Virus record (IMG/VR): IMGVR_UViG_3300014839_000021
Coordinates: 1 to 38,369 of that record
Strand: one strand, 5' to 3'
Origin: a virus
Length of the DNA: 38,369 bases
Part shown: positions 3,253 through 38,369 of the stretch, in pieces
Layout: each line of letters begins with the position of its first letter
How positions within the stretch are numbered: the stretch's first letter is position 1
The notes under the pieces: generated by a model
The model's database searches: none
Told to the model about the DNA's origin: nothing
Seen by the model: only the letters and a program-made list of their open reading frames with translations
Translations under genes and position numbers: made by a program

Positions 3253-3543
3253 TCAACTTGGGGTGATGCTGTCGCCCACGGCAAGGCGGAGTCGCTCTCG
3301 AATGGTGCTGATGCGGTCGGATACGCGAAGGAGTGTTGTCTCACCGATGCTGCACTCCAGTTGGAGCTGGTCGAGACTGACGAGTTCATAGAGGAGCGAG
3401 CGCACGAGTTCATTGATGCGCTTCATTCTCACATCCGCCTTTGTCTCTTCCATCGAGAGACGCTTGCGTAAGTCCGAGGCCAGAGCGCGTTCCTCTTTCG
3501 TTCCGCGACGATTCGGTTTGAGTGTTGCTTCGATTTCAGTCAT
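3253..3543 (-). CDS. Hypothetical helical protein, first gene of leftward operon (96 aa)
   Basis: Two ATGs stand in tandem at 3546 and 3543. GAGGAG is only 2 nt from the first, so the second is preferred. The protein is charged and predicted all-helical, with Lys/Arg-rich residues 10-45 and a helical C-terminal half; no recognised domain. It starts about 20 nt after the expected transcription start of promoter P1 (-10 at 3573-3578) and so is the first gene of the operon leading to the Ubl/E2/JAMM genes. A regulator is possible but not shown. Confidence 0.75.
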   Translation of the reverse strand: MTEIEATLKPNRRGTKEERALASDLRKRLSMEETKADVRMKRINELVRSLLYELVSLDQLQLECSIGETTLLRVSDRISTIRERLRLAVGDSITPS

Positions 3544-3572
3544 CATTTCTCCTCGTGTGTGATCTTTCGCGG

Positions 3573-3611
3573 AACCTACGACATCAGAGGGGCGCTTGTC
3601 AATGACATCGC
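3573..3611 (-). promoter_or_regulatory. Promoter P1, leftward, with palindromic element
   Basis: Read on the minus strand: GCGATGTCA then -35 TTGACA (3597-3602), an 18-nt spacer and -10 TAGGTT (3573-3578). The -35 overlaps the near-palindrome TGTCA-T-TGACA. The layout and much of the sequence recur at P2 and P3, and more weakly at P4, so this is a conserved phage promoter class. It directs transcription into the gene at 3543. Confidence 0.8.
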
Positions 3612-3655
3612 ATGGCCCGAGCGATATTTATTTCCGACACGCGATGTCATTGACA
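3597..3655. repeat. Perfect 15-bp inverted repeat between divergent promoters
   Basis: TGTCAATGACATCGC (3597-3611) is the exact reverse complement of GCGATGTCATTGACA (3641-3655), with a 29-bp AT-containing centre. Each arm contains its own TGTCA/TGACA palindrome overlapping a -35 box. This looks like a paired operator, or a shared recognition element for both divergent promoters. Confidence 0.8.
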
Positions 3656-3678
3656 AACGCGGGACAAAGTTGTAGGTT
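3641..3678 (+). promoter_or_regulatory. Promoter P2, rightward
   Basis: GCGATGTCA plus TTGACA (3650-3655), a 17-nt spacer and TAGGTT (3673-3678), followed by CG as in the other copies. Expected start near 3685. It faces into a 270-bp stretch with no clear gene and then into the 3' ends of leftward genes, so its product is probably a small RNA, a very small protein, or antisense to those genes. Confidence 0.7.
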
Positions 3679-3684
3679 CGTCCT

Positions 3685-3800
3685 GTAATCAGGCTGAGAC
3701 CAGCCGTTCACGCGACTCTGCGGTCCGCGTGTTCGATCGAGTCCTGCCGTTCACGACGAGTGAACAAGACAAGGGCGTGTATGTCGGGTGAATAGGAGAA
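3685..3800 (+). ncRNA. Candidate structured leader or small RNA downstream of P2
   Basis: Several short stems lie in sequence: GGCT 3692-3695 with AGCC 3702-3705; GACTC 3714-3718 with GAGTC 3739-3743, enclosing GCG/CGC; and GTTCAC 3749-3754 with GTGAAC 3760-3765 around a 5-nt loop. Together with a strong promoter and no long frame, this suggests a structured transcript. No known RNA family recognised and no clear terminator seen. Stems this short can occur by chance. Confidence 0.3.
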
Positions 3801-3804
3801 GTGG

Positions 3805-3906
3805 GTGCGAGCACAACTCATGCGGAAAGAACAGTTGTTCGTGTTACGGTACTACTGGGAATGTGGCAGAGGAATCTGCCGAGGCGGTACTCATGTTAAT
3901 GCATGA
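3805..3906 (+). CDS. Possible 33-aa peptide downstream of P2
   Basis: GTG at 3805 with AGGAG 6 nt upstream, running to TGA at 3904-3906. The product is short, basic and aromatic (contains RYYWECGRGICRGG). It is the only rightward frame with a good ribosome site behind P2. No family recognised; it may be chance. Confidence 0.25.
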   Translation: MRAQLMRKEQLFVLRYYWECGRGICRGGTHVNA

Positions 3907-3947
3907 TGTGTGCCATGAGTGCGCGCCACGGCAGATATGCCTCTAAC

Positions 3948-4166
3948 TCAGTATCCAGAGCGAATTGACTTCATCAGCGCGTCATGTTGCTCGAACCGAT
4001 GTTCCAATTCTCTCCTCAATTCTTCAAACGACCGCGCTTCACACGACTCTGCCATTAGCGCAGGGTTATCCCGCACCAGCGACTGAAAGGCGTGAATGTC
4101 GGCCAGAAGCATCAATTGTCGCTCATGCTGTGCGACATTCGGGCGGTAAAGGGCATGAATGGTCAT
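3948..4166 (-). CDS. Hypothetical helical protein (72 aa)
   Basis: ATG at 4166 with GAGGTG nearby; the start overlaps the upstream gene's TGA in a TCATGA junction, so it is coupled. The protein is helical and charged: residues about 15-45 are amphipathic and the ELRRELEHRFEQHDALM stretch (49-65) is coiled-coil-like. No recognised family. Last gene of the leftward small-gene run. Confidence 0.65.
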   Translation of the reverse strand: MTIHALYRPNVAQHERQLMLLADIHAFQSLVRDNPALMAESCEARSFEELRRELEHRFEQHDALMKSIRSGY

Positions 4167-4387
4167 GACTTCACCTCGCAGAGATTCCGGATGTCGTGGA
4201 CGTTGACCCTGAATACCTCTTTCCCAGAGTGCAGCGTCCTGAACCAGCCGAACATCTCATATTGGTCATTCATGACCTTGAAGTATGCTTCGCCTCTCCG
4301 CTGACCCAGAGGCACGACCTGGGCCAGCAGAGTGAGGCGTTCAGCCTTCTTCCTGGCGAACACGGTGACAAACTTGTGTGTGGTCAT
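4163..4387 (-). CDS. Hypothetical protein (74 aa)
   Basis: Start at 4387 (MTTHKFVTVF) because GGAGGAA lies just upstream; the longer in-frame extension overlaps two other genes and is unlikely. Mixed alpha/beta, basic N-terminal half, with a GEAYFKVMNDQYEMFGWF segment (about 35-52). No family recognised. Overlaps both neighbours by 4 nt (ATGA). Confidence 0.65.
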   Translation of the reverse strand: MTTHKFVTVFARKKAERLTLLAQVVPLGQRRGEAYFKVMNDQYEMFGWFRTLHSGKEVFRVNVHDIRNLCEVKS

Positions 4388-4518
4388 GACTTCCTCCATG
4401 CGCTTGAAATCTGCACGGCGAGGTAGATGACCACACCTGCGCCTACCAGGATGACTCCGCCTGGGATCATGCACACCAGGCAGAGCACGAGTAGTACGAT
4501 GACTCCCTTGGGTGTCAT
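4384..4518 (-). CDS. Small membrane protein (44 aa)
   Basis: ATG at 4518 preceded by GGGAGG. It is almost entirely hydrophobic: residues 4-20 (KGVIVLLVLCLVCMIPG) and 21-36 read as two short or one long membrane segment, then a short basic tail. No family recognised. Overlaps both neighbours by 4 nt. Confidence 0.65.
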   Translation of the reverse strand: MTPKGVIVLLVLCLVCMIPGGVILVGAGVVIYLAVQISSAWRKS

Positions 4519-4595
4519 TTCTTGCCTCCCTTCGACTTGTAACCGAAGAAGTGGATGGCGATGAGCACCCCGATGGCTGTAATCAGATAGTTCAT
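4515..4595 (-). CDS. Very small membrane protein (26 aa)
   Basis: ATG at 4595 with GAGGG upstream, ending in a 4-nt overlap with the next gene. Residues 2-17 (NYLITAIGVLIAIHFF) form one membrane helix, followed by a basic tail (GYKSKGGKK). The ATGA chaining on both sides is the main support for such a short gene. Confidence 0.55.
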   Translation of the reverse strand: MNYLITAIGVLIAIHFFGYKSKGGKK

Positions 4596-4828
4596 GCGAC
4601 CCTCGCATGGAAGGACATGGATACCTTCCGCTCGTAGATCGCGCTTATCATGTTGCGTACAGACTGCACGTACACACCAGGCGCGTGCTTGTGAACGGCA
4701 CACCGCAGAGAGATCTCCGCGTCAGCTATTGCCTCAAAGCCCTTCGCCCGAAGATTCATGGCGAAGAATCCCTCCGCAACAACCAATCTCTCATGTGCGT
4801 CGATGAGGTCGAGTTCCCACGGTTTCAT
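4592..4828 (-). CDS. Hypothetical protein (78 aa)
   Basis: ATG at 4828 with AAGGAGC upstream. Soluble, mixed alpha with conserved-looking hydrophobic spacing (MKPWELDLIDAHERLVVAEG, then AIADAEISLRCAVHKH at about 33-48). No recognised domain. First of five genes chained by 4-nt overlaps down to 3948. Confidence 0.65.
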   Translation of the reverse strand: MKPWELDLIDAHERLVVAEGFFAMNLRAKGFEAIADAEISLRCAVHKHAPGVYVQSVRNMISAIYERKVSMSFHARVA

Positions 4829-4862
4829 GGTTTATTGCTCCTTCTCTGTCTGAAATGACAAA

Positions 4863-4884
4863 GCCCAGATTTGGTGGTCTGGGC
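4863..4884 (-). promoter_or_regulatory. Hairpin in the leader of the 4828 gene
   Basis: GCCCAGA (4863-4869) pairs with TCTGGGC (4878-4884), a 7-bp stem with an 8-nt loop. On the minus strand it is followed by TTTG and lies about 35 nt upstream of the ATG. It could be a weak terminator or attenuator; the T-run is too short to be sure. Confidence 0.35.
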
Positions 4885-4970
4885 GTTCGGCTTAGATCAT
4901 AGTCCCCTCACTCAGATTCGATCCTACGTCCAACATCGACGGTGAGGGGTTGATCGGGCTTTTCGCGTGA

Positions 4971-5273
4971 TCAGCGCGACTGTGTCAGTCCATTCAATAC
5001 GACATGGATTGCCTCCAGATGTGCTACTTCAGTGGTTTGAGACGTGATACGACGTGCTTCGAGCGAGAGATGGGATACCGAATCGGCTTCTTGTGACGGA
5101 TCCGCTTCATGCAGTGACGGGTGGGCGGACCAATACGGACCAGCGGTGCAAATGAGAATAGACCGTTGAGATTGGGGTGCATAGCTCCTCCTGTATGTGG
5201 GGTGAGTAGTGACAGTGGGGTACTTCAAGACTGATACAGCGCGTGGTGCGTGGGACTGATGAGTACTGCTCAC
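4971..5273 (-). CDS. Possible hypothetical protein (100 aa), competes with a nested frame
   Basis: GTG at 5273 overlaps the TGA of the upstream gene, a coupling pattern common in this genome. The second half (residues about 53-98) is acidic and helix-like; the first half is His/Ser/Pro-rich and looks less like protein. No family recognised. The frame at 5024-5182 has a far better ribosome site, so one of the two is probably spurious. Confidence 0.35.
   Translation of the reverse strand: MSSTHQSHAPRAVSVLKYPTVTTHPTYRRSYAPQSQRSILICTAGPYWSAHPSLHEADPSQEADSVSHLSLEARRITSQTTEVAHLEAIHVVLNGLTQSR
5024..5182 (-). CDS. Possible small basic protein (52 aa)
   Basis: ATG at 5182 directly behind AGGAGGAGC, an excellent ribosome site. 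The product is very basic (CMKRIRHKKPIRYPISRSK at about 24-42), as in small nucleic-acid-binding phage proteins, but no motif confirms this. It lies inside the 100-residue frame in another phase. Confidence 0.4.
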   Translation of the reverse strand: MHPNLNGLFSFAPLVRIGPPTRHCMKRIRHKKPIRYPISRSKHVVSRLKPLK

Positions 5274-5473
5274 AACTGGCAGACTGGGTCAGTCACGCTG
5301 CCCCACTGCGGGGCACGCACAATCGCCCCTATTGGGTGCAGGCACACGCTACACGCGCTGTATTGGTCCTGAAATGGTGAAATCCTAAAGACTGCATCGC
5401 ACATCAAGGCGTGCTTCCCATGATGAGAGCGCCGTATTACTCCTGAAATCAGTAAGAGTAAGGGTGCGCTCAT
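5270..5473 (-). CDS. Hypothetical Cys-containing small protein (67 aa)
   Basis: Starts at ATG 5473; a GTG at 5494 directly after the upstream stop is an alternative. A short hydrophobic N-terminus (SAPLLLLISGV) precedes four cysteines, two of them in CSVC, with another near the end, so a small metal site is possible. No family recognised. Weak ribosome site. Confidence 0.4.
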   Translation of the reverse strand: MSAPLLLLISGVIRRSHHGKHALMCDAVFRISPFQDQYSACSVCLHPIGAIVRAPQWGSVTDPVCQL

Positions 5474-5494
5474 GCAGACACGCACCCCCCACAC

Positions 5495-5767
5495 TCACGC
5501 GTTCACGCTGACAGCCGTGTACACGCGCTCCTCATACGACCACTGGCTCACAGTAGCGAGCCCCTTCAGGTCATACGAGGCCACTGCGTTCTCGAAGTTG
5601 TCGAGGTACGCGGCGTCGATGACATCATTCACCATGCAGGCAGGCGGAATGATGGCGAAGACACGCGTGATGACGCCCTTGTCATCATGGCTCACGCGAA
5701 TCGCGGGCAGTTTGAGTGCTGCCGTGACAGTGATGCCCTTCAGGTGACCGATAACGGATGCTGCCAT
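5495..5767 (-). CDS. Hypothetical protein (90 aa), first gene of the small leftward cluster
   Basis: ATG at 5767 with GGAGG 5 nt upstream, so the longer in-frame start at 5779 is rejected. Mixed alpha/beta: ITVTAALKLPAIRVSHDD then VITRVFAIIPPACM strands, and a helix around 54-68. No HTH, zinc motif or known domain seen. The leader upstream contains a 6-bp stem (GGCACC/GGTGTC, one wobble) followed by six T before the ATG, a possible attenuator. Confidence 0.65.
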   Translation of the reverse strand: MAASVIGHLKGITVTAALKLPAIRVSHDDKGVITRVFAIIPPACMVNDVIDAAYLDNFENAVASYDLKGLATVSQWSYEERVYTAVSVNA

Positions 5768-5951
5768 TGTAACCTCCAACTAAGGATGGATGAAAAAACT
5801 CAACGGCGACACCTACGGGTGCCCCAACTTCGGAGGGGGTGGCCTCTGTTGATAACCACCCGCCGACACTCTGCAACTCTTTTTTGACTTCTACTGTCTG
5901 TCTCCCCGCTGCACGACAGTCACTCCCGCCGTATTTATTATTTGTTTCTCT

Positions 5952-5990
5952 GCGATGTCATTGACTTGCGCCCCCCCGATGTTGTAGGTT
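5952..5990 (+). promoter_or_regulatory. Promoter P3, rightward, probably leaderless
   Basis: GCGATGTCA with TTGACT (5961-5966), an 18-nt spacer rich in C, and TAGGTT (5985-5990) followed by CCGC as in P1. The ATG of the next gene is at 5997, where transcription itself would start, so the mRNA is expected to have no 5' leader. Confidence 0.75.
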
Positions 5991-5996
5991 CCGCCC

Positions 5997-6785
5997 ATGG
6001 AGACACTCAGACGCTACCGCAGACACAAAAAGGTCGAACATCCCATCTACACGGTGTCCGAGGCCGCCGCCTTGGGGCTCGCCGCCGTGCCCTGGCGTGA
6101 TGCGATCGGGGAATCGTGGGCGATCACCGATGACGGATACGTCGCCCTGTGCCTGGCGCGTAACGAGTACACATCGAAACGCGGTCGTGCGACGTATCTC
6201 CGCTTCACGATCGGCGGAGTGTGGCTCTCGAAGACAGCCCAGCTCCTCTGGCTTGCCCGTAAGATCTCCAAGTGCCACGGGTCGGGCACAAAGACCTGGA
6301 TGGAGCTCGAAATGCGCCGCACCCGCTTCAAGGAGTTGGTCAAGGCGTACACTCTGCAGCGCGTCAACGGCCAGGTGGACTGGGAAGTGCTGGGGAGGAT
6401 CTACCGCAGGAACGACCCGAAGCGGGTCGAATCAGCTCAGAGAATACTACGGCGTCCGGAGGCGCAGACAATGATCGACGAAAACATGAAGGATCTCCTG
6501 GTAAAGAAGGGCATCACGCGCGAGTGGGCGCTGGAGATACTCCCGGAGGCGCTCCGCATCGCCAAGGAGAACTCAGACGCCAATGCCATGCTGAAGGTCT
6601 TTGTCATCGCGCAGCCGATCCTGAACCTCCAGGCAAGTGAGAACAGCGCGGGGAACCGCGTCGAGGACTTCACCCCCTATGAACAGATCGTCGAGGCCGA
6701 GGATACGGCCCGCCGTGCCAGCGCCGCGATCGCCGTCGCCTCTGAAGTACTGCCTCCGGAGGCTCCCGATGTCCCGAGAGAGTGA
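5997..6785 (+). CDS. Probable terminase small subunit-like DNA-binding protein
   Basis: 262 residues, Arg/Lys-rich N-terminus, then an all-helical middle (about 120-215) of the type seen in phage small terminase subunits: WEVLGRIYRRNDPKRVESAQ, MIDENMKDLLVKKGITREW, EILPEALRIAKENSDANAML. These subunits bind pac or cos DNA and hand it to the large terminase. It heads the rightward cluster that ends in the large terminase. Residues 1-90 include a YTVSEAAALG helix that could be an HTH. No ribosome site; the ATG lies 6 nt after the P3 -10 box. Another DNA-binding protein is the alternative. Confidence 0.5.
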   Translation: METLRRYRRHKKVEHPIYTVSEAAALGLAAVPWRDAIGESWAITDDGYVALCLARNEYTSKRGRATYLRFTIGGVWLSKTAQLLWLARKISKCHGSGTKTWMELEMRRTRFKELVKAYTLQRVNGQVDWEVLGRIYRRNDPKRVESAQRILRRPEAQTMIDENMKDLLVKKGITREWALEILPEALRIAKENSDANAMLKVFVIAQPILNLQASENSAGNRVEDFTPYEQIVEAEDTARRASAAIAVASEVLPPEAPDVPRE

Positions 6786-10389: not shown

Positions 10390-10423
10390 TGTCATTGACA
10401 ATGTCATGACAAAGTGCTTGGTT
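10387..10423 (+). promoter_or_regulatory. Promoter/operator P4 at end of large terminase
   Basis: TGATGTCA then TTGACA (10395-10400), a 17-nt spacer and TTGGTT (10418-10423), one base off the TAGGTT of P1-P3. Inside the spacer lies a second palindrome, TGTCATGACA (10403-10412). It resembles the other promoters but with a doubled palindrome, so it may be more tightly repressed. Confidence 0.5.
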
Positions 10424-10591
10424 AGCGCCATAACGGTGCAGGATTGCTTTGGAAAGCTGGTCCTGTCGCTGGAACACTCGAACTTCCCCCTCACGATGGT
10501 CGTCCGGACCACGCGCGGGATCAAGCGGTACACGATCAACCTTCACCTTACAAGAGAATCTGACGCAGTAAAGAGCGCAACGATGACATGA
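10406..10591 (+). CDS. Hypothetical small protein (61 aa)
   Basis: The frame is open from 10346, but the portion upstream of 10390 lies inside the large terminase. The ATG at 10406 falls inside promoter P4, so if P4 is active translation must begin later or from read-through mRNA. The sequence is beta-like (SAITVQDCFGKLVLSLEHS, then TMVVRTTRGIKRYTINLHL). No family recognised. Confidence 0.45.
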   Translation: MTKCLVSAITVQDCFGKLVLSLEHSNFPLTMVVRTTRGIKRYTINLHLTRESDAVKSATMT

Positions 10592-10635
10592 CCCGATAAG
10601 GGTCGCCAGGCAAGTCACCCAACAAAAGGGGAGCG

Positions 10636-10674
10636 AGCCTACATCAGTCGAAAGACTGGCGTAGGCTTTTTTTT
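10636..10674 (+). terminator. Strong intrinsic terminator
   Basis: AGCCTAC-atc-AGTC, GAAA tetraloop, GACT-ggc-GTAGGCT: a stem of about 14 pairs with a single mismatch, followed by eight T (10667-10674). It separates the packaging/early genes from the virion genes, and the T-run touches the portal ATG. Confidence 0.9.
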
Positions 10675-12918
10675 ATGCCATCAACCGATCTCATGACAGG
10701 CGAACACGTCCAGGTAGCCCCTGGAGCTGGCACGTTTGTCATGGACCCCAAAGTGCTCCTCTCGGTCGAGATCCTGAACGCCTACGACAATGCCGAGCGC
10801 AAGGTCTGGGCGCAGCAGGCCCTTCAGGACGACGCCTTCCGCAACAACATCCAGTGGGACTTGGAAGCCATCAAGGTCCTCGAAGCCCGCAACCAGATGC
10901 CCATTGTCGTCAACGTCATCCACCCCGCGGTGGAGCAGGCCAAGGCGATGCTCACCACCAACCGCCCGCGCTTCAGTTCAACAGGCCGCGAAGACTCCGA
11001 CACCCGCACGGGCAGAATGTTCTCGGATCTCCTGACCTACATCTGGGACATCTCCCTCGGCATGGTCCAGGTCAAGCAGGCCGTGGACGACTACTACGTG
11101 CGGGGCATGGGCATCCTGTACGCCTATTTCGACCCGAACGCCGACTTCGGGAACGGCGAGGTGAAGTTCTCCGCCCTCGACCCCTTTGACGTCTACATCG
11201 ACCCGAACTCCAAAGACCCCTTTGCCCGCGACGCCCAGAACATCCTGATCGTCCGCGTGATGACGCGTGAGCAGATCCAGAGGATGTACCCCGAAGTCAT
11301 CGACAAACTGCAGACCGCCTCCCGCATTCAGAACTCGCGACAGCCCGTCCTCCACCGCGTGGGGCTGGAAGGCCAGATCCTCTCGGCCAACCAGTCTTTG
11401 GACCAGGAACACGAGCACTACGAGATCATCGACCGCTACTCCCGCGTCAAGAAGAAGCACTACAAGGCCGTTGACGGCACCACCAACCGTGAGAAAATCT
11501 TCAACTCGGACGAGGAACTCCAGCAATACGCGCAAACCAAGGCCGTCGTCAAGCAGTCATCGGGAGGCGAGCAGGTGGTGACCGATCCGGATGACGTCGC
11601 GCAGCTCCTCCAGATCAACGACCAGACGGGCGGCGTGTTCCACTTCGCCCAGGATCCTTCAAAGGACCAGCCGACGATGGTCCCTGGTCCCGAGGCCGAG
11701 GATGAGGCCGCGGTGCAGGGTTCGGAAACACGGCTCACGGTCTGCACGATCGCCGATTTGATCCATCTGAAGTTGATAGAGATCGTGCCCATACTCTCAG
11801 ACCGCATCAACCGCGTGCTCTCCGTAGGTGGCGTGCTCCTCTATGACGGCGAGCTCCCCCTGGAGGATTTCCCCATCGTGCCTGTTTATAACCGCTTCAA
11901 CAGGAACCCCTATCCGATGTCGGACGTGAGATTCGTCCGCCCGATCCAGGAATACATCAACAAGTTTCGCTCCCTCATCATCGCGCATACAGCCAATAGC
12001 TCGAACGTCAAGGCGTTCATCCCGCGCGGAAGCGTCAACAAGGCGGAGCTCGAACGTGAATGGGCCAAGGCGGGCGCCGCACTTATTGAATATGACGCGG
12101 AGTTCGGCGTCCCCGTGATCGCCTCGCCGCCCCCGCTTCCCAACGAGCTGTACAAGGCTGAATCCGACGCCCGCAAGGACATCCAGGAGATTCTTGGAAT
12201 CTACCCACTTATGCAGGGCGACTCCGGACAGGCCCCTAACACCTACAAGGGCACCGTGGCGATGGATGAGTACGGGCAGCGCCGCATCAAGAGCAAGAAG
12301 GACGACGTCGAACAGGCCCTGAACCAAATGGCCCGCGTCATCGTGGACATGATCCAGGCATTCTACACCAAGCCGAAAGTGATACGCCTCCTGGAACCGA
12401 ACCACAAGCCGAAGGAAGTCTCCATCAACCAGCCGATCTACAACGACGTGGACGACGTGATCGGCGTGCTGAATGACGTCACGATCGGCCGCTACGATGT
12501 CGTGGTCGTCTCGGGCTCGATGCTCCCGTCCAATCGCTGGGCTCGCTTTGAGTACTACATGGAACTGTACGAGAAGGGGATCATCGACCAGATCGAGGTC
12601 CTGAAGCAGACCGAGGTCGTGGACATGGAGGGCGTAATGAACCGCTTCGGCGAGATCCAGCAGCTCCGTCAGCAGGTCGCGGGCCTCACCCAGCAGCTCA
12701 AAGGCGTGCAGGGGGATCTCCAGACGGCCCAGAGGGAGAGCGTTCAGGACCGCAAGAGAGTCGAAGTCGAAAAGTTCAAGACTGGCCTGCACTCGGTACG
12801 CAACCGTGCCGAGGGAGCCCAGGAGCTATTCAAGGCGCGCCTGAACGACCAGCTCTCCAATCAGGAGAAGGCGGCCAAAGTAGAGATGCAACGAAGGAAG
12901 ATGCCTCCAAAGAAGTGA
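10675..12918 (+). CDS. Portal protein, P22-like
   Basis: 747 residues, close to the usual length of P22-type portals. Typical features: an N-terminal helix region, NRPRFSSTGREDSD (about 95-108), DDYYVRGMGILYAYFDPNA (138-156), LDPFDVYIDP (168-177) and a long C-terminal helical barrel rich in Gln/Glu (about 655-745). It forms the dodecameric ring through which DNA enters and leaves and to which the tail attaches. The start is uncertain: ATG 10675 abuts the terminator and has no ribosome site; ATGs at 10693 and 10741 are alternatives. Between terminase and scaffold, as expected. Confidence 0.85.
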   Translation: MPSTDLMTGEHVQVAPGAGTFVMDPKVLLSVEILNAYDNAERKVWAQQALQDDAFRNNIQWDLEAIKVLEARNQMPIVVNVIHPAVEQAKAMLTTNRPRFSSTGREDSDTRTGRMFSDLLTYIWDISLGMVQVKQAVDDYYVRGMGILYAYFDPNADFGNGEVKFSALDPFDVYIDPNSKDPFARDAQNILIVRVMTREQIQRMYPEVIDKLQTASRIQNSRQPVLHRVGLEGQILSANQSLDQEHEHYEIIDRYSRVKKKHYKAVDGTTNREKIFNSDEELQQYAQTKAVVKQSSGGEQVVTDPDDVAQLLQINDQTGGVFHFAQDPSKDQPTMVPGPEAEDEAAVQGSETRLTVCTIADLIHLKLIEIVPILSDRINRVLSVGGVLLYDGELPLEDFPIVPVYNRFNRNPYPMSDVRFVRPIQEYINKFRSLIIAHTANSSNVKAFIPRGSVNKAELEREWAKAGAALIEYDAEFGVPVIASPPPLPNELYKAESDARKDIQEILGIYPLMQGDSGQAPNTYKGTVAMDEYGQRRIKSKKDDVEQALNQMARVIVDMIQAFYTKPKVIRLLEPNHKPKEVSINQPIYNDVDDVIGVLNDVTIGRYDVVVVSGSMLPSNRWARFEYYMELYEKGIIDQIEVLKQTEVVDMEGVMNRFGEIQQLRQQVAGLTQQLKGVQGDLQTAQRESVQDRKRVEVEKFKTGLHSVRNRAEGAQELFKARLNDQLSNQEKAAKVEMQRRKMPPKK

Positions 12919-28027: not shown

Positions 28028-31000
28028 ATGGATGACCAGTCGATAGCACTTCTCAATTCGCTGTACCAGCAGAAACCCGAAACATTCACCGATGACCAGG
28101 TCGCCTCGCTTCAGCAGGTGAACAAGGATGCGGGCAAGGATTTCCAGCCCAAGGCATCGGCCCAGCCATTTAATCTTCTTAATACCGTTGCACAACTAGG
28201 CGAAGGATTCCTTCAGGGATTCACGACGATCAAGATGGGTGAAGCCCCGCAGAACACGGTCGAGGGGATCGCCCGATCGGTCGGGAGCCTCCTGGGATTT
28301 GTCGGCTTCGTCCCTGGCCCTGGCATCTTCAAGGCATTCAAGCGCGAGGGAATGGCGGGCGTTACCGCCGCGGCGACCCATGACGCGCTCGGCATCCAGC
28401 TCAAAAGCGTGCCCATGTGGATTTCGGACAAGATCATGGGCGGACTGCAGAAAACCATCGCCCAGACCGAAGCGGCGAGTGCAATCAAGTTCTTCAAGAA
28501 TGGCTCGATCGCGCGCGACGTGACCGAGGGCGCCCTTTCGCTCGGCATCGCCTCGGCGGTCGGCGCGGCGCAGCCCTGGGAGCTGAACATCGAGGACCGC
28601 ATGAAGGCATTCCTCGGCGGGGCGGAGGCAGGGGGCGTGTTCCGCGGTATCGGTAACACCTTCGCCAAGGGCGGCGCGATGAACATGGGGAGTGAGGCGA
28701 CGAACCTCCTGGCCCGTACGCTCTCGGCATCACTCTATTCTGGCATCCCCTCCACGCTCCGCGGTGAGCCGATGGAGATGCAGGTCTATGAATATCTCCT
28801 CGGGGCCTGGTTCGGCAAGAACGAGCAGCCCGCGTACATGAGGGAAGTGCATGGGCTGTTCAAGGACTACCTCGGCGACACGACTCGCCAGATGGAGCTC
28901 CTCGACCCCTCAAAACTCCCTGGCTACGACAACCTTTCGGACAACGCCAAGATCGAGGCAAAGGCCCAGGCGCAGCTCCTGGTCGGGGGATGGGAAGAAT
29001 CGGCAAAGGCAAGCGAGGCGGCAATCGCCGCCTCCCAAGCCTTCGCAGGCTCCATGACTGACGCGCTGGCGACGGGCAGGATAAGCCCCGAGCAGTACCG
29101 CGACTGGTCGAGAGTCCAGGTCGTCGAAGGCGCCTACCGCAAGACGAAGGATACGGTCGATCAGGAGCACCCCGAGTTGGATGAGGAGACACGTTCGGCG
29201 ATGGCGCGGCAGGGCGCACTCGCCAACGTTGCGGAGTTCTCACGGCAGGCCCGCACGAACACAGACGCGCTCAAAAGGCTCTGGGCAGCAAGCGACCAGG
29301 AGAACGTCTGGATGCACTCCAACGGCGGGACGCAAGTTCTGAAGATGTTCGACGACCGCGAGGTTGCCCGCCAGTGGATCGCCCCCGTCTACGAGCTGGC
29401 AAACCAGCTTGCGGAGTCGCGTGGAGCGATTGACAAGAAGAACGACGTCACCTATGCAAGCGAGATCATTGACCACGTCAAGGCGTCGGGCAAGGGTGCA
29501 AACCAACTGGATGCCTTCCGCGCCAGGATACTGAAGGAGTACTCGCTCGACACGACCAAGGACGCGGACTTGAACCGCAAGATCGTGCAGACCGTGGCCC
29601 TGGTGAGTCAGTCCAAGAGGCTCAACCGCCTGATCCTGAACAAGGACGGCGATGTAGTCCAGATGCCCCGCATGGACATGGACGGGGATTCGACCTCGAT
29701 GGACTATGTCCCCACGTTCATTGAGAAGAAGTCGGGAGCCACGGCGCACCTGCTCTCCTCCCAGTTTACCGAGGATGAGGAGAAGCCGCTGAATGACATC
29801 GAGTTTAATGCGGCCAAGATGATCGTTTCGGCCTACGGCTACACGGCGTCGACCACGGGACGCGACGGGACCGATGTCGCCCGTAGCGTGCCCCTGATAT
29901 ACTTCGGCCATGTGAAGGACACCCCTCATGAGGTGTTCCTGACGAGTGTTGTCTCGCGCGCGAAGGACGGCTGGACCTACGAGGTGAACGGCGAGAAGCG
30001 AACGGTGAAGTTCCTCCAGAAGCTCGACGAGCTTAACCGTGCCCCCGCGATGGCGGGACGCGACGCACGGAGCGACTACCAGGCGAACAGGGAGGACTTC
30101 ATCAGAGAGTACGCCGAGGGGAAGCCCATCTCCGAGCAGAAGAAGGTCGAGCTGAGGGATATTTACGAGCACCTGACGATGCAGAACATCGCCGTCGCCG
30201 AGCAGATGAATGACGGCATCTCGATCGGCGACCAGATGGCTTCCGCGCATGAGGCCCAGGGCGGCCTGTCCTTCATGACGAAGGTAACGGATTTCAACAA
30301 GCGTATGCAGCCGATGTTTAACCGCGATCCCCTGGCGGACCCCGAACAGTTCAAAGACATCCTTCCTGATGGGAAGATGAAGGGCGTCCTGGTGCAGATG
30401 GACGAGAGCCCGCAGGGTGGGAACGCGATGCAGAAGGTCGAGGACAAGAAGGGGAACGTCGTAGACAAGATCTACGGCGAGGCGACCGATGGCGTGTTCC
30501 TCATGACTGGTCCCGTGTACGAGCGCCTTGCCGCCTCGATGGGGCTGCCGAAGGATACGGGCGGGCAGAAGGGGACCGTGATGTATTCGGACAAAGCGGA
30601 CGGGATGTTTATCGGCAAGCTGTTCTTCCACCGTGCGAGTCCCGAGATGGAGAAGTCCATGACGGAGCGCGGTATACACTTCCAGGCGTACACGACGGCG
30701 GCCAAGCAGTTCGGCAAGCGTCCCGTGTTCACCGAGAAGTACTCGGGCGGGAGGTTTTCCTACGAGCGGCAGGGCGGCACGTTCCTCGATGACGGCACCT
30801 TCGAGTTGCCCGTTGACTCGATCCGGATGAACTTCGGGGCGGGGGAGATGGGTGGATTCCATGACACCTACTACAAGAGGCAGTTGGCCGACAACCTGGA
30901 CCTGGTGCATTCGATCGGCTGGGACGAGAACATACTGAAACCCGCCAACCGCGGGCGCGATTCGCAGAACCTGATCGCGGCGAAGTACTGGAACGTGAAC

Positions 31001-34000
31001 GAGAAGCGCCGCGCGGAGTTGGATCAAGAGTTTGCCGCCGATGTCGAGAAGCACGGCGTTCAGCTCGGGAGCCAGCGCCTGGTGGACCTGATGGTGGGCG
31101 CCGAGCGCAAGAGTTCGCCCATCTACAACACGGTGCTGAAGGACGTTCTGAAGTGGTACGGGCGTGAGATGGAGACTGCGGAGAACCGATCGGATGACGC
31201 GCTGGCCGAGCTCACCTTTCTCTCCAAGGCAAAGACGGCGGCTGACCGTATCAAGGCGGCCAACATCTCTGACCCGCTGGTGATGGAGCTGAAGCAGATC
31301 AAGCCGTTCTTCCATACGATGCTTCGCCGTTACTTGACCGACCGCCTCATGGGGCCGACAAGCGAGGGCTCCTGGAAGTCGAAGCTGTATTCCGCCGATC
31401 GCTCCTTGATAAGCCGTATCCACGAGGGCGAGTACCTGGCAGCGGACGGGCTGAAAGACAAGCCCATCCAGTTCCTGGGGAAAGAAACGCGCCTGGAGGA
31501 TGCCTGGACGAAGTACAACAGCAAGACGTTGTCAGGAAACGATCAGGCGCAGGCCGAGCGGGACCTGGAGCATTTCGTGATGCGCGTCCCTGCGGATTCG
31601 CCCTCTGGCGTGCGGGTGATGAAGTTCAAGGGGTTCTCAGGGAGTCAGGGGTACGGAATCTACCTTCACCCGAAGGATATGCAGGCTCTGGGCGGAGCCG
31701 ATCTTGACGGCGACGCGGCGGACGTCTATACGAAGATCGGCTCCTCGGCGGACTTTAACGAGAAGCTCAAAACGTATTTCCGCTCCAAGAAGGATATGTG
31801 GCAGAAGGAGAACGGCGTCACCGTTCCCTCCTCGTCGGACGGCCTGGCGGTTGAGGGGCGTGATCCTTTGATAACCGCTCGGCTGAAGAGCCCCGCCTCG
31901 ATGGTGGATCCTCTTTCACGGGCGAAGGTGGGACGCTGGGCCAACATGGGCAACTCGATGCTGGGCCGCGCCCTGACGCGCACGATGAGGCTCCGCGAGA
32001 TGCAGAAGTTCGCGCTCGATAACGGCGGGACAATCCGCGGGAAGTTCTCCAACTCGGACGCCGTTCGCCTCATGCTGGCAAAGAAGCTCCCTGGTGCCGA
32101 CCGCTTCATTCCCGAGGAGCTGGAAGGGTTGAAAGCCTCCCTGGACAAGACGCGCCGCAGACAGTCGGACTGGGACAATATCAATACCGCGGTGAAGAAG
32201 GCGGGACTCTCCGCTGGCGTCTGGAAGGCGGACCTGAACCTCGGTCAGACCGCGACGGGGGCGACGAAGCTCCAGGAGATGCGGCGTAATGTTATTAACA
32301 CGGCGGCAGACGCGGCCAAGGGGGACGAGCTCTATGCCTACAAGGACATCCGGAGCGCGATCAATTCCTCGGCTTTCTCCAACATGAAAGTGCAGTTCAA
32401 GCGGGACGGGAAGCTCACCGTCTCGGCGGTGGACGATTACCTCCTGGTGGACAACCACGACTACTACAAGAAGCTGACGGCCATCGGCGGCTTTGCGACG
32501 GCCAGGGACCCCAAGACGGGACGAGCTTTCTCCTTCTTTGAGGCACTTGAAGGGCTCCAGGCGAACGCGAAGGTGGACAAGAAAACGGGTGAGATCCCCT
32601 TCGACCCGAGCGCGGTGCGTTTCCGCGTGGCGAACCATCTGGCGCAGATCGAGCTTACGGCACGCGACATCGACCTCACCCATGTCATCGGTCCAGGCTG
32701 GCCGCTGGCGCGTAAGGCACTTGACAAGATGATCCGCGAGAACAGGGAGTTCCGCGAGATGGTGAACCGCAAGCAGATCACGATTGACACCAGGGGCGAG
32801 GCGGCGTTCGCTCAGACGGTGGATAAGACGACGCTGGGCGGCCAGGACGACATCAACGAGATCCGTATGCAGGATCTCCAGGACGTCGCCACCTGGAGCG
32901 AGGTGGGGAATTTAGGACAGCAGGTCATGGATTCCCAGGTGAAGGGGGGCGCAAAGAGGGAGGACGTTCTCGCGTATTTCGCGCAGATCGCCGATAAGAT
33001 CGACGACCTGAAGGCCGAGGACGCCACGATCAGGAAGGACAAGTTCTCTGGCGAGGAGCCCAAGGCCCGTAAGACGGTCGAGCAGGTGGTGAAGGAGGCA
33101 TCCGATTTCAGGAAGGCGCTTCCGGAAGTCTACGCGCCCTACTTCGATGCGTGGGCGGCAGGGTCCCTGTTCCGTCAGGGCGAGGAGTTTGAGGCGCGGC
33201 CTGGCGTGAAGGCGCTCCGTGCGGGCGAGGCGGAGGCCAACAGGCAGGGTGGCGAGACGCTTGGGGCCTGGAAGCAGGCGCTTCATGAGGAGAGTAAGGA
33301 CTGGAACCGCACCAATTCGACCAACTTCGCCTACGCGCTCGACGTCGTTGCCCCTGATGCCATACGCAACCAGGTCCAGCGCATGGTGGACATCGGGCGC
33401 ACCGTGTCGAACATACTCCCCAGGGCGAAGAGCGAGTTCGCCGAGACGGAGCTTCGGAGCGTGGTGTTCGCGCCCAAGCTCGTCACCCCCGAGTTGAAGG
33501 CGGTCATGCCTGAGACGGTGCTCATGCTGGCCCCGATCGAGCAGACGAAGGTCATCGCCGCCGTACTCGGCAACATCGAGCAGGTGAAGGTGTCCAATAC
33601 GTTTGCCCATGATGCCTTCGAGCTGGCGAAGCTCCAGGTGAAGGATCCCGAGCTGAAGCAGCTCTCGGGCGATCTCAGGCGCCTCCTGGATCATTTCCCC
33701 CAGTTCATGCGGGACATCCAGGGATGGCTGGAAGGAACCGTCGCCGAGTCCAACGACCAGGGTGTCGGAGTCGGACCACGGAAGTTCACCAAGCAGCACC
33801 TGAAGATGGTCGTCAACAGCTTCAAGGTAGGTGATAAGTTCTGGTGGGAGCTCTCGGCAAAGGAACGCGAGTTCTCCCTGGCGAACCGTCACTTCCTCTA
33901 TGATCCCGAGATGCTGGGGAGAAAGATGCTTGCGGGCGACCACAAGTTGATGGATTCTGTCTCACCCGTGATCGACGACGTGGAGGGGCCGATCTTCAAG

Positions 34001-36583
34001 CCCGTCAAGGTGTTCAAGAGTCACATGAGCGAGATCGCCGACCTCTGGCAGCACGCCCACTGGTCGTTCAACGGCGCGATGAAGAACGAGGGGCAGGTGT
34101 TGGACCGCTTCCTGTTCCCCGTCAGGGCCTCTGGCAAGGATGGTTACACCCTCTTTTCGATCGCTTCGGACATACGGCAGGGGGGTGTCGGACGGCGCCC
34201 TGGGGTCAGCGCCGAGTCAGCGGCGGCCTATGCGACAATCGAGAAGCGCGGACTTGACCGCTTCAACAAGGAGTATGACTTCGGCAGGAAGAGGGTACGC
34301 TACTCGGACATGACGGGCTCGACCGACATCACGGCGAAGGAAGCCCTGGAGAAGATCACCAAGCTCCAGACGGACTTCTTTGCTCGCTGGCAGTCGATCA
34401 TCTCGAATCCTATAAACGAGAAGCGGTACCTCAAATATCATGCGGGGACGCAACTCATCGACGTCACCGAATCCCTCCGTGCCCTGAACGATCATATAAA
34501 ATACGGTCGTCAGCTCCCCGACATCGGGATCGAGGGGATGTATAAACTGATACACCAGATGAGCGTCAACAAGATGGTCGTCAACGGGCAGCGCCTGGGT
34601 GACCTCTCCGCGGTGGACCGCGAGAGGACGATGGCCGAGCTCTTCAACCGCACCAGGGCGAATGGTTCACGCCCGTATGCGTTCCTCCGCTATAAGAACC
34701 TGGAGTTCATGAGCCCCGCGATGTACTTCCCGCACAACGGGCACTCGGAAAAGATGCTCCGTGAACGCCTGAACAACGAGCGCGAGAAGATGCGGGCTGC
34801 CGTCTCTGGCCCTGAAGCAGTGGCGATGGACAATCTGGAGAGCCTGGAGCGGGTGACGAGCCTGAACCTGGAGGACGCGGGGATGTCAGACTCGGTCATG
34901 CGTCAGTTGGAGGCCCGCACCCTCTCGGACAAGGACTACGCCTCGCTCAACATCAGGCCCCAGGCGCTAAAGCTCCGCGATGAGCTGCCGCTTCCTGGCT
35001 GGGACCAGTCGCCCCTTGCCCTGGAACGGTATCAACAGCAGATGCTTCGTGGCTATTACAACATGGTGGGAGCCGTGATGTCGAGCGCCCGCGTGGACAA
35101 CTTCGCGTACTCCAAGCCCTTCGGAGAGAACACGAAGCCCTGGGAGATCTTCATGAGGATCTTCAACCGTAACAACCTGGGGCATCCCTCGACCTTCCCG
35201 CAGGAGTGGCTTGACCATCCGGAGTACAAGATCAAGGGCAACCCTGGCTACTACTGGCTCACCGATCAGTACTGGCTGGACAAGGCCGCGCAGATCGACA
35301 AGGAGCACTTCCAGATCATCAGTAAGCCCACTGATGAGATGACGGCGAAGGACAAGGAGCACAACTGGGAGGTAAAGAAGAACCAGCAGCAACGCATCAG
35401 GAAGATCGCCGCCTTCTCGAACCTGGAGGCCAAGTGGGAGATGATCTCCATGCTCTCGCACACCAAGACGGCCATCAACAACCTGATGGGCGGGACGACG
35501 AACAACGCTGTGTCGCTCGGTCTTGGCCCCTACGTGCGGAGCCATTCGCTCAATTACTGGAGGGGGATCTTCCCGCAGATACGCAGCATGGATGATATGA
35601 GGCTCTTTGCCGAGAAGCATGGGGCAGGGGAGAGCTGGGTGAACGACGCGCTGGAGTCCCGAGGGCTGGGCCAGGATCGGAAGTTCTCGGGAGCTCTGGC
35701 CGAGGCCGTCGCCGAGATCAAGCGCAACCCGAAGCTCTCGGACATCGACCTGTTCCACATCGCCGACAAGCACGGCGTTGACCGCGCCTTCTTCGATACG
35801 GGCGCCTGGTTCATGCGTAAGACCGAGCGGTATCTCCGCAACCAGTCTTTTCTTGCCCATTACTCGAAGGCGCGTGAAGCTCTGGGAGCGAACAGTTTTA
35901 CCTTTGAGGACGACGACCCTTGGCTGATTAAGATGGCCAACAGGGGCGTCAAGACGACGCAGTTCCTCTATAACAACGCTTCACGCCCCGCCTTCGGGCG
36001 GACGTCACTGGGTAAGGTGTTCACCCGCTTCCAGATGTGGGCATGGAATAGCGGCAAGATGCGCTTGGAGGTCTACAACAAGGCGAAGGAAGTGGGATAC
36101 GCGCAGGGCAGCCCTGAGTTCGAGCGCCTCCGCCGTCTGATGATCTCAGACCTCTTCACCTTTGCCCTGGCTGGGCTGTTTCCCTCGACGATCTTCGGGT
36201 CGAACATGGCGCCGCCGTGGTCGTTCCTCCAGGACGCTTCCAGCTTCTTCTTTGGGAACGATGAGGACAAGGACAGGGCGTTCTTCGGGAGCCTGCCGTA
36301 CCCGCTGAACATCGTCCAGCCCGTGTCGCCTCCGATCACGCGGCTACTGTATCCGACGTTCCAGGCCGCGGTATCGGGCAACTGGGATCGGTTCTTCGAC
36401 TATCACGTCTGGACGTGGTTTCCTTACGGGCGTATGGCGAATAGCGTGCGGAAGACGATGCAGGACCCGTCAATGGCGGTGGAGCAGTTCACTGGCCTAC
36501 CTCTTCACCGTCTCGCCTCTGACGTGAAGAGGAAGGACCAGGACAGGGCGACGACTGAGGGGATTATCTCGGGTCTGCTCTGA
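28028..36583 (+). CDS. Giant virion protein with two-barrel (DPBB) RNA polymerase signatures
   Basis: 2851 residues, GAGGGA before the ATG. The N-terminal 250 residues contain Gly/Ala membrane-active segments as in the upstream ejection proteins. Residues about 820-900 resemble the first double-psi barrel of phage and RdRp-type polymerases: TDGVFLMTG, GGQKG (K848), IGKLFF (K864), and a TTAAKQFGKR end (K893). Residues 1186-1229 match the beta-prime catalytic block: R1186-V-P, YLHP (1212-1215), nine residues, then D1225-L-D-G-D1229, the Mg-binding motif; compare NRAP...LHP...NADFDGD in bacterial RpoC. The C-terminal 500 residues end in a hydrophobic patch (LFTFALAGLFPSTIFG). Most likely a packaged RNA polymerase injected with the DNA. 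Activity is inference; the motif is directly visible. Confidence 0.8.
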   Translation: MDDQSIALLNSLYQQKPETFTDDQVASLQQVNKDAGKDFQPKASAQPFNLLNTVAQLGEGFLQGFTTIKMGEAPQNTVEGIARSVGSLLGFVGFVPGPGIFKAFKREGMAGVTAAATHDALGIQLKSVPMWISDKIMGGLQKTIAQTEAASAIKFFKNGSIARDVTEGALSLGIASAVGAAQPWELNIEDRMKAFLGGAEAGGVFRGIGNTFAKGGAMNMGSEATNLLARTLSASLYSGIPSTLRGEPMEMQVYEYLLGAWFGKNEQPAYMREVHGLFKDYLGDTTRQMELLDPSKLPGYDNLSDNAKIEAKAQAQLLVGGWEESAKASEAAIAASQAFAGSMTDALATGRISPEQYRDWSRVQVVEGAYRKTKDTVDQEHPELDEETRSAMARQGALANVAEFSRQARTNTDALKRLWAASDQENVWMHSNGGTQVLKMFDDREVARQWIAPVYELANQLAESRGAIDKKNDVTYASEIIDHVKASGKGANQLDAFRARILKEYSLDTTKDADLNRKIVQTVALVSQSKRLNRLILNKDGDVVQMPRMDMDGDSTSMDYVPTFIEKKSGATAHLLSSQFTEDEEKPLNDIEFNAAKMIVSAYGYTASTTGRDGTDVARSVPLIYFGHVKDTPHEVFLTSVVSRAKDGWTYEVNGEKRTVKFLQKLDELNRAPAMAGRDARSDYQANREDFIREYAEGKPISEQKKVELRDIYEHLTMQNIAVAEQMNDGISIGDQMASAHEAQGGLSFMTKVTDFNKRMQPMFNRDPLADPEQFKDILPDGKMKGVLVQMDESPQGGNAMQKVEDKKGNVVDKIYGEATDGVFLMTGPVYERLAASMGLPKDTGGQKGTVMYSDKADGMFIGKLFFHRASPEMEKSMTERGIHFQAYTTAAKQFGKRPVFTEKYSGGRFSYERQGGTFLDDGTFELPVDSIRMNFGAGEMGGFHDTYYKRQLADNLDLVHSIGWDENILKPANRGRDSQNLIAAKYWNVNEKRRAELDQEFAADVEKHGVQLGSQRLVDLMVGAERKSSPIYNTVLKDVLKWYGREMETAENRSDDALAELTFLSKAKTAADRIKAANISDPLVMELKQIKPFFHTMLRRYLTDRLMGPTSEGSWKSKLYSADRSLISRIHEGEYLAADGLKDKPIQFLGKETRLEDAWTKYNSKTLSGNDQAQAERDLEHFVMRVPADSPSGVRVMKFKGFSGSQGYGIYLHPKDMQALGGADLDGDAADVYTKIGSSADFNEKLKTYFRSKKDMWQKENGVTVPSSSDGLAVEGRDPLITARLKSPASMVDPLSRAKVGRWANMGNSMLGRALTRTMRLREMQKFALDNGGTIRGKFSNSDAVRLMLAKKLPGADRFIPEELEGLKASLDKTRRRQSDWDNINTAVKKAGLSAGVWKADLNLGQTATGATKLQEMRRNVINTAADAAKGDELYAYKDIRSAINSSAFSNMKVQFKRDGKLTVSAVDDYLLVDNHDYYKKLTAIGGFATARDPKTGRAFSFFEALEGLQANAKVDKKTGEIPFDPSAVRFRVANHLAQIELTARDIDLTHVIGPGWPLARKALDKMIRENREFREMVNRKQITIDTRGEAAFAQTVDKTTLGGQDDINEIRMQDLQDVATWSEVGNLGQQVMDSQVKGGAKREDVLAYFAQIADKIDDLKAEDATIRKDKFSGEEPKARKTVEQVVKEASDFRKALPEVYAPYFDAWAAGSLFRQGEEFEARPGVKALRAGEAEANRQGGETLGAWKQALHEESKDWNRTNSTNFAYALDVVAPDAIRNQVQRMVDIGRTVSNILPRAKSEFAETELRSVVFAPKLVTPELKAVMPETVLMLAPIEQTKVIAAVLGNIEQVKVSNTFAHDAFELAKLQVKDPELKQLSGDLRRLLDHFPQFMRDIQGWLEGTVAESNDQGVGVGPRKFTKQHLKMVVNSFKVGDKFWWELSAKEREFSLANRHFLYDPEMLGRKMLAGDHKLMDSVSPVIDDVEGPIFKPVKVFKSHMSEIADLWQHAHWSFNGAMKNEGQVLDRFLFPVRASGKDGYTLFSIASDIRQGGVGRRPGVSAESAAAYATIEKRGLDRFNKEYDFGRKRVRYSDMTGSTDITAKEALEKITKLQTDFFARWQSIISNPINEKRYLKYHAGTQLIDVTESLRALNDHIKYGRQLPDIGIEGMYKLIHQMSVNKMVVNGQRLGDLSAVDRERTMAELFNRTRANGSRPYAFLRYKNLEFMSPAMYFPHNGHSEKMLRERLNNEREKMRAAVSGPEAVAMDNLESLERVTSLNLEDAGMSDSVMRQLEARTLSDKDYASLNIRPQALKLRDELPLPGWDQSPLALERYQQQMLRGYYNMVGAVMSSARVDNFAYSKPFGENTKPWEIFMRIFNRNNLGHPSTFPQEWLDHPEYKIKGNPGYYWLTDQYWLDKAAQIDKEHFQIISKPTDEMTAKDKEHNWEVKKNQQQRIRKIAAFSNLEAKWEMISMLSHTKTAINNLMGGTTNNAVSLGLGPYVRSHSLNYWRGIFPQIRSMDDMRLFAEKHGAGESWVNDALESRGLGQDRKFSGALAEAVAEIKRNPKLSDIDLFHIADKHGVDRAFFDTGAWFMRKTERYLRNQSFLAHYSKAREALGANSFTFEDDDPWLIKMANRGVKTTQFLYNNASRPAFGRTSLGKVFTRFQMWAWNSGKMRLEVYNKAKEVGYAQGSPEFERLRRLMISDLFTFALAGLFPSTIFGSNMAPPWSFLQDASSFFFGNDEDKDRAFFGSLPYPLNIVQPVSPPITRLLYPTFQAAVSGNWDRFFDYHVWTWFPYGRMANSVRKTMQDPSMAVEQFTGLPLHRLASDVKRKDQDRATTEGIISGLL
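31583..31714 (+). other. Polymerase catalytic block (R-x-P to D-L-D-G-D)
   Basis: Codons 1186-1229 of the giant gene: Arg-Val-Pro, a 23-residue strand region, LHP, and at 31700-31714 the Asp-Leu-Asp-Gly-Asp motif preceded by Gly-Gly-Ala. The Leu variant (DLDGD) is the form usual in cellular RNA-dependent RNA polymerases and is also found among phage two-barrel enzymes. Confidence 0.75.
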
Positions 36584-37185: not shown

Positions 37186-38184
37186 TCAAGGGATGGTTCG
37201 AAGGCTTGGCAAACGATCGACAGTCTCGTGCATCTCGCGCGATACCAGGTGTGAGTATCCCATCGTTGTCGCGATCGAGGTGTGGCCCATAATCTTCTGG
37301 ACATCCTGGACGGCAGCTCCGTTCTTCAGAGTCAGCGTCGCAAATGCATGACGTAGCGAGTGGAAGTGAACGTCCGAGTCGATCCCAGCTCGTTTCTTCG
37401 CTCTTGCGAAGAGGCGAGAGACATGGTGAAGTGTCGGCGGGGTTCCCTTCTCTGTGACAAAGACACGGACGGTACTTTGATCCATCCCGTTCAGGATCAG
37501 GAGCGCCTGGGCGTTGAGGGGAACCCAGCGTTCTCTGTCGCCCTTCCCGTATCGTACATGGAGGAGACGTTCGTACAACTGGACATCATCCCAGGTGAGC
37601 TCGACCAGTTCCTTCCGCCGCAGTCCCGTCAAGATCGCAAGGGCGATGATGTCCTTGTGCCATTTGCTCCGCAGTCCCTTCCAGAGTTTGTCAAAGTCGT
37701 CGGGTGAGACGTACACCTTCCCGCTGGTTTTCACATAGAGGTTCTTCAGGAAGCGCAGAGGATTCTCCGCAAGGTATTCCCGCTGGACGGCGTAGGTGAA
37801 CATGGCTTTGAGCTGGCGGAGATGAATCAGCACCGTTGCCTTGCCCCTACCCGTCCCGAGAAGGGCGCGGTACTCGTCCATGCGTGCGGGAGTGATCGTT
37901 GAGAGGCGCCAGTCGCCCCCCCACGCGAGGAACGGCTTGAGGATGTCCCTGATGAGTTGCTGTGTTGTCGGCTGGTGTTCGGCCTTCGAGTGCGCGAGGT
38001 AGGCATCAGAGAACTCTCGCAGGGTAGCGTTGGAGGTGTGGCCTGGGATGCGGAAGTCGCGGAGAGTGACCCGTGCTTTGCCCCTTTCCCTGTATCCCGT
38101 CGATTTGCTATGCTCTCTGCCCGTTGAATCCTTGTACCGAATTATATATATTCCATCGTAGCGTTTCGTGAGGGAGGGGGGCAT
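37186..38184 (-). CDS. int: Tyrosine integrase (site-specific recombinase)
   Basis: 332 residues on the minus strand. N-terminal arm-binding part (about 1-50; KRYDGIYIIRYKDSTGRE), core-binding helical domain (about 51-145; includes LREFSDAYLAH and the LRQLKAMFTYAVQREYL helix), catalytic domain with all active residues: R189 in TGLRRKELVELTW, K214, H275-x-x-R278 in HSLRHAFATL, H301 in IMGHTS, and nucleophile Y310 in TMGYSHL. It would integrate and excise the phage by strand exchange through a 3'-phosphotyrosine. Length is typical. It lies next to a tRNA-His, a usual target. No strong ribosome site at the ATG. Confidence 0.93.
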   Translation of the reverse strand: MPPSLTKRYDGIYIIRYKDSTGREHSKSTGYRERGKARVTLRDFRIPGHTSNATLREFSDAYLAHSKAEHQPTTQQLIRDILKPFLAWGGDWRLSTITPARMDEYRALLGTGRGKATVLIHLRQLKAMFTYAVQREYLAENPLRFLKNLYVKTSGKVYVSPDDFDKLWKGLRSKWHKDIIALAILTGLRRKELVELTWDDVQLYERLLHVRYGKGDRERWVPLNAQALLILNGMDQSTVRVFVTEKGTPPTLHHVSRLFARAKKRAGIDSDVHFHSLRHAFATLTLKNGAAVQDVQKIMGHTSIATTMGYSHLVSREMHETVDRLPSLRTIP

Positions 38185-38227: not shown

Positions 38228-38251
38228 CCAGCGTAGAAAAACCAACGCTGG
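38228..38251. repeat. Inverted repeat overlapping the tRNA 5' end
   Basis: CCAGCGT (38228-38234) and ACGCTGG (38245-38251) are perfect 7-bp arms around AGAAAAACCA. The right arm includes the first five bases of the tRNA. It could be a core-type integrase site, or a weak hairpin competing with the acceptor stem. Confidence 0.45.
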
Positions 38252-38320
38252 CGTAGCTCAGTTGGTTAGAGCACCAGATTGTGGATCTGGGGGTCACTGG
38301 TTCGAATCCAGTCGCCAGTA
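38247..38320 (+). tRNA. tRNA-His (GTG anticodon)
   Basis: Complete cloverleaf: acceptor GCTGGCG/CGCCAGT, D arm GCTC...GAGC, anticodon arm CCAGA-TTGTGGA-TCTGG with anticodon GTG (38281-38283), variable GGGTC, T arm ACTGG-TTCGAAT-CCAGT, discriminator A at 38320, no encoded CCA. The first pair is a G-T wobble, and there is neither G at -1 (it is C) nor C at 73, which most bacterial tRNA-His have. The 5' end, not the 3' end, faces the integrase. Confidence 0.9.
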
Positions 38321-38338
38321 CTATTCGATTGTTTCTCC

Positions 38339-38365
38339 ATTTTCAATCCTCGATTTTCAATCCTC
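38339..38365. repeat. Tandem 13-mer at the window end
   Basis: ATTTTCAATCCTC at 38339-38351 and 38353-38365, period 14, in an AT-rich stretch after the tRNA. Possibly a regulatory or attachment-flanking repeat; its extent beyond the window is unknown. Confidence 0.5.
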
Positions 38366-38369
38366 CATC

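Follow-up and report, generated by a model that had tools for sequence, protein, structure and literature searches.

Four related predicted promoters of host type share a candidate operator palindrome in an Ignavibacteriota prophage

In the 38,369-nt stretch of DNA analysed here (the window; Table 1) we found four related sites, P1 to P4, which fit the promoter pattern of the host group, lie at conserved positions and carry an 11-bp palindrome. The reading we consider probable is that all four are predicted host-sigma promoters with a phage-specific operator, silenced together by a phage repressor. That host RNA polymerase with its primary sigma factor would read these sites is well supported, whereas a common repressor, suggested by the palindrome, is plausible but unproven. 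The sites would have spread by duplication within one temperate phage. P1 would start the leftward arm and P3 the virion-gene arm, with P4 placed at the junction of the large terminase and portal genes and P2 facing the leftward genes. The palindrome would most likely be the operator of the phage repressor, which in the prophage would block sigma at all four sites, so that both arms would be silent together. The result is a concrete map of transcription that can be tested in a temperate phage, from a bacterial group whose phages have been little studied, together with a promoter consensus for the Ignavibacteriota host group.

The window encodes an integrase, a P22-type portal, an SU10-type capsid protein and a phrog_38 large terminase (TerL), and by these genes together with a tRNA-His junction it is a temperate tailed phage. 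From base 1 of the tRNA-His (38247) onwards, the final 123 bases are identical to contig PMND01000139.1, which belongs to a fen genome bin of the Ignavibacteriae, whereas the bases immediately ahead of 38247 differ from that contig. Identity up to the end of the window with divergence before it marks a prophage end and names the host group. The window is therefore a prophage in an Ignavibacteriota bacterium, the bin representing the host's group and not necessarily its species. The record is without the left arm of the phage, and the prophage is incomplete on that side. Since the junction with host DNA falls precisely on the first base of the tRNA-His, the tRNA loses its own promoter (window 38247-38369; L014 2560-2815). 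As a substitute, the phage supplies a site in the 5′ part of its integrase gene that closely resembles the tRNA-His promoter of the host.

Table 1. Coordinates of the sites, genes and RNA elements discussed (window positions unless a relative is named)
Feature	Position	Strand	Description
Analysed window	1-38,369		38,369 nt; IMG/VR record IMGVR_UViG_3300014839_000021, positions 1 to 38,369
P1	3573-3611	-	-35 TTGACA 3602-3597; 18-nt spacer; -10 TAGGTT 3578-3573; palindrome 3597-3607
P2	3641-3678	+	palindrome 3645-3655; -35 TTGACA 3650-3655; 17-nt spacer; -10 TAGGTT 3673-3678
P3	5952-5990	+	palindrome (1 mismatch) 5956-5966; -35 TTGACT 5961-5966; 18-nt spacer; -10 TAGGTT 5985-5990
P4	10386-10423	+	palindromes 10390-10400 and 10402-10411; -35 TTGACA 10395-10400; 17-nt spacer; weak -10 TTGGTT 10418-10423
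97-aa gene	3253-3546	-	first gene downstream of P1; ribosome site GAGGAG
262-aa gene	5997-6785	+	first gene downstream of P3; small-terminase-like position
61-aa gene	10406-10591	+	at P4; homologues in L004 and, judged by eye, in L089
Hairpin-linker-terminator	10585-10676		L004 11672-11767; L089 6748-6872
Giant protein gene	28028-36583	+	2,851 aa; two-barrel RNA polymerase core; metal motif DLDGD at residue 1225
Replacement tRNA-His promoter	38124-38152	+	TTGAAT-N17-TATATT; in 5′ part of integrase gene; rank 1 on host model
tRNA-His and flank	38247-38369	+	tRNA-His 38247-38321; identical to host DNA; prophage-host junction

P1, P2 and P3 have GCGATGTCATTGAC and TAGGTTC in common. The sequence-only reading had described a family of near-identical promoters, and its account of the sites was confirmed: all three 14-mers of the shared stretch are exact and at the positions it gave, TAGGTTC is common to the three, and the spacers from the -35 to TAGGTT fall within the 17-18 nt it had named. 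The palindrome TGTCA-n-TGACA that it placed over each -35 is perfect in P1, P2 and P4 and has one mismatch in P3. P4, which it had called a weaker copy, is a diverged relative of P2; the two agree in 30 of 39 bases, compared with a best match of 26 in 200 first-order simulated genomes. P1 and P3 form the other pair, as inverted copies of one 44-nt block (89% alike). TTGAC stands at the -35 in four of four sites, and the -10 that P1-P3 share is replaced by TTGGTT in P4. P1, P2 and P3 are the only three places in the window with the pattern GATGTCATTGAC-N16-20-TAGGTT. The palindrome pattern TGTCA-N0-3-TGACA was observed four times versus 0.17 per simulated genome, and TTGACW-N16-19-TAnnTT three times (P1-P3) versus 0.085. 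Because P1-P3 look like paralogous copies, they do not count as three independent events.

A shared 15-mer frequent throughout the host genome would have refuted the sequence-only reading, but an exact copy of even the 12-mer GATGTCATTGAC is absent from the host group's 3.5-Mb bin. In the same bin, TGTCANTGACA followed by a TANNNT box is absent. A scan of viral contigs for GCGATGTCATTGAC-N-TAGGTT gave no match. One match to a looser pattern, in contig L015, was set aside; by a rough estimate it is about what chance would give in the collection, and the contig has no tblastx similarity to the window.

The host promoter model was learned from 730 kb of the Ignavibacteriae bin only. In a first version, the columns flanking the boxes had picked up coding sequence, and the model used here therefore consists of the hexamers only. 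In the upstream regions of host genes, TTGAC.-N17-TAnnTT was found 7 times versus 0.3 expected from coding DNA, with few occurrences at other spacings. The refined model, built on 64 sites, has a TTGACA-like and a TATATT-like hexamer with a spacer of 17 nt in 51 of them, and the host consensus reads TTGACA-N17-TAnnTT. A Bacteroidetes -33/-7 promoter, hinted at by TAGGTTCG, was rejected as TAnnTTTG is not enriched upstream of host genes (1 versus 2.3 expected).

When all positions on both strands of the window were scored with the host model, P2 ranked third, P4 fourth, P3 seventh and P1 ninth. P2 has optimal spacing and scores well unaided (14.0). P3 and P1 reached 11.4 and 11.1, respectively. 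Scores near 11 arise one to six times per simulated genome, so P1 and P3 are weak alone and are supported mainly by their place and their likeness to P2. With a host-type promoter taken as a TTGACA-like -35 and a TAnnTT-like -10 at 16-19 nt, P1-P3 fit in both boxes and P4 fits in the -35. Three features count against the fit: few sites of the host model have an 18-nt spacer like that of P1 and P3 (2/64), G is uncommon there at positions 3 and 4 of the -10, and the -10 of P4 is without TA.

The placement of the sites suggests how the promoter activity that we infer would be used. P1 is directed at the first leftward gene. The predicted start of P3 is probably the A of the ATG at 5997, and the message would then be leaderless; the 262-aa protein encoded there matched phrog_51 below significance. 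P4 overlaps the TerL stop codon and overlies the start of the 61-aa gene. P2, whose role we infer, is oriented against the leftward genes, and the 260-nt gap ends in a stable hairpin (z -2.7). The sequence downstream of P2 contains a cysteine-rich open frame of 52 aa (3788-3946), possibly a chance one, that overlaps a strong hairpin. An Rfam search near P1-P3 gave a single match, below the gathering score.

The positions of these promoters are shared with relatives of the phage. In L004 (TerL 72% identical) the gene order is the same as in the window, and the host-type sites ranked first, second and seventh lie at the positions of P1, P4 and P3, respectively (4190, minus strand; 11481 and 6373, plus strand). 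These three promoters are without the palindrome and without the 14-mer. The arm that P1 would start in the window leads on, in L004, to replication genes, among them one for a protein resembling a primase/helicase (AAA_25, E 3.8e-9). L089, whose capsid protein is 61% identical, has a pair of nearly identical promoters, TTGAC[AT]TCGCAGA[AT]TGAA..CTCCATCTT, located ahead of the virion genes and directly behind TerL; they are alike in 26 of 30 bases (control maximum 21). L143 has its own pair (24/30, control maximum 21), which are the two best host-model sites in its first 6 kb, one at the TerL-portal junction and one upstream of the virion genes. By the same test, most marine relatives have no significant promoter pair at the P3/P4 positions. 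No TGTCA-N0-3-TGACA palindrome was found in 971 kb of relatives. Positions and host-type boxes thus recur, while the phage-specific part varies from phage to phage. Such variation would be expected of regulator-specific operators or of repeated copying, and not of the recognition sequence of a shared polymerase.

The right half of the palindrome, TGTCA-T-TGACA, is the -35 element. It reads TGTCATTGACA in P1, P2 and P4 and TGTCATTGACT in P3, and in P4 a second palindrome, TGTCATGACA, follows directly after the first. A symmetric site that is repeated at several phage promoters and overlaps their -35 has the form of an operator regulon. In the host bin, TGTCA-N0-3-TGACA followed by a -10-like box was not found. 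Conservation around the palindrome is lopsided, with GCGA on the left side only, which would also follow from copying alone. No helix-turn-helix protein was found among the proteins scanned, the record being without the left arm. Thus, of the proposal that these are host-sigma promoters under one repressor, the promoter part has gained support from an independent host model and from conserved positions in relatives, and the repressor part has no gene among the scanned proteins.

In phage lambda, the OL and OR operators overlie PL and PR, and the repressor sites come in sets of three. The arrangement described here would work in a similar way, as one short symmetric element lies over the promoters of both the leftward and the rightward arm. 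In contrast to lambda, there is one palindrome per promoter, no repressor gene was found adjacent, and the rightward arm is the virion operon and not an early operon. A second comparison is offered by the repressor and stoperators of cluster A mycobacteriophages (L5 type), whose sites, as described in PMC9283540, are spread over the genome, some of them without a good promoter, as P4 may be. The L5-type sites are asymmetric and monomer-bound according to the same paper (PMC9283540), whereas here only four sites are present and they are symmetric.

The window also encodes a giant protein, the last gene of the virion operon, with the sequence GGADLDGD at residue 1225. A homologue is present in 13 of the 20 related records examined, each of the 15 homologues spanning the motif retains D-x-D-x-D, and the family in uncultivated phages is large (L086, L087, L169-L181). 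The giant core had no convincing match by sequence in PDB or Pfam, nor did a homologue searched against phage genomes, and no homologue was found in 391 genomes of the host's class, a search run with no positive control. A core structure predicted from 3 sequences was useless (pLDDT 32), whereas a model from 16 sequences reached pLDDT 69. A structure search with the latter returned the crAss-like phi14:2 virion polymerase first (6vr4, E 8e-7), followed by bacterial beta' subunits. Re-alignment gave Z scores of 16.2 for QDE-1, 13.1 for phi14:2, 12.5 for P23-45 gp64 and 10.8 for gp96. The protein has the two double-psi barrel core and D-x-D-x-D of the single-chain polymerases of the crAss/P23-45 type, a fold and motif it shares with phi14:2 gp66 and P23-45 gp96. 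On the structural model it is likely an RNA polymerase; its size and its last place in the virion operon make a virion polymerase plausible. Unlike the phi14:2 and P23-45 systems, the phage analysed here carries an integrase. If true, a temperate phage with a polymerase of this type would be a good case for reconciling lysogeny with an injected polymerase.

A wider scheme would combine these elements. Each phage of the family would keep its own near-identical promoter copies at fixed places: the head of the virion operon, the point where TerL meets the portal gene and, in the window, the left operon as well. The copies would combine boxes of host type with a phage-specific part read by a phage factor. 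Working with the host polymerase, this factor would take over from the injected giant RNA polymerase, so that a temperate phage with a virion RNA polymerase would have one switch for both arms. We regard this scheme as possible but rather improbable.

The palindrome could instead bind an activator, a late or lysogeny regulator that aids the host polymerase at imperfect promoters. Neither the 18-nt spacer nor TAGGTT reaches the host optimum, as at activator-dependent promoters, and the -35 region is where such activators sit. However, the right half-site is in itself a complete TTGACA, and a dimer bound there would therefore mask the -35; moreover, P2 has optimal spacing and a good score without help; we therefore consider an activator doubtful. 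More doubtful still is that P1-P4 are merely duplicated host-type promoters, in which the palindrome was carried along by chance when the block was copied and has no binding partner. Copying does explain much, as the P1/P3 and P2/P4 pairs share spacer sequence too, and L004 manages without the palindrome. In P4, however, the spacer and -10 have diverged and the palindrome was kept, with a second one beside it.

The other explanation offered by the sequence-only reading was that the sites are promoters for the virion polymerase. In this view the giant RNA polymerase would enter the cell together with the DNA and recognise the 14-mer and TAGGTTC. The suggestion was right in that the giant protein has a polymerase core with a conserved metal motif, and P1-P4 do share more sequence than a sigma promoter needs, but we disfavour it as very unlikely, since the sites have the boxes and the spacing of host promoters, they serve the left arm and also the virion genes (behind P3 and P4), although the virion polymerases of this type known so far transcribe early genes (P23-45; PMC10770324), relatives with homologous giant proteins have neither the 14-mer nor the palindrome, and the parts common to the phages are the host-type boxes and not a phage-specific motif. 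In addition, the motif of the P23-45 virion polymerase is AT-rich (PMC10770324), whereas P1-P4 look like host-sigma sites. Two questions are thereby separated, namely where the host polymerase starts and whether any start sites belong to the giant polymerase, which probably uses others. The 665-nt gap 4829-5494 holds another family of repeats (5029-5455), in which GCGCyGTATy-N3-TCyTGAAAT is present about four times, in either orientation, with a pair score of 21/26 compared with at most 19 in simulations. These repeats could be better candidate sites for the giant polymerase than P1-P4, and could also be a replication or partition site.

Several further elements were observed in the intergenic regions. 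In L004, the AT-rich palindrome CTAGTATATATATATACTAG is present in two intergenic gaps (4195-4218 and 5822-5845) in opposite orientation. The leader of the leftward gene 5495-5779 contains a hairpin followed by T5-6 (5780-5880) and looks like an attenuator; the same leader hairpin and T5-6 are found in L004 (6220-6300) with changed sequence. Between the P4 gene and the portal gene, three phages have a hairpin, a linker and a strong terminator with a T run. An Rfam search with this P4 unit gave no match, and outside the window the hairpin motif that follows the P4 gene was seen in the L004 contig alone. The linker AGGCrAGTCAmCC is present in both the window and L004.
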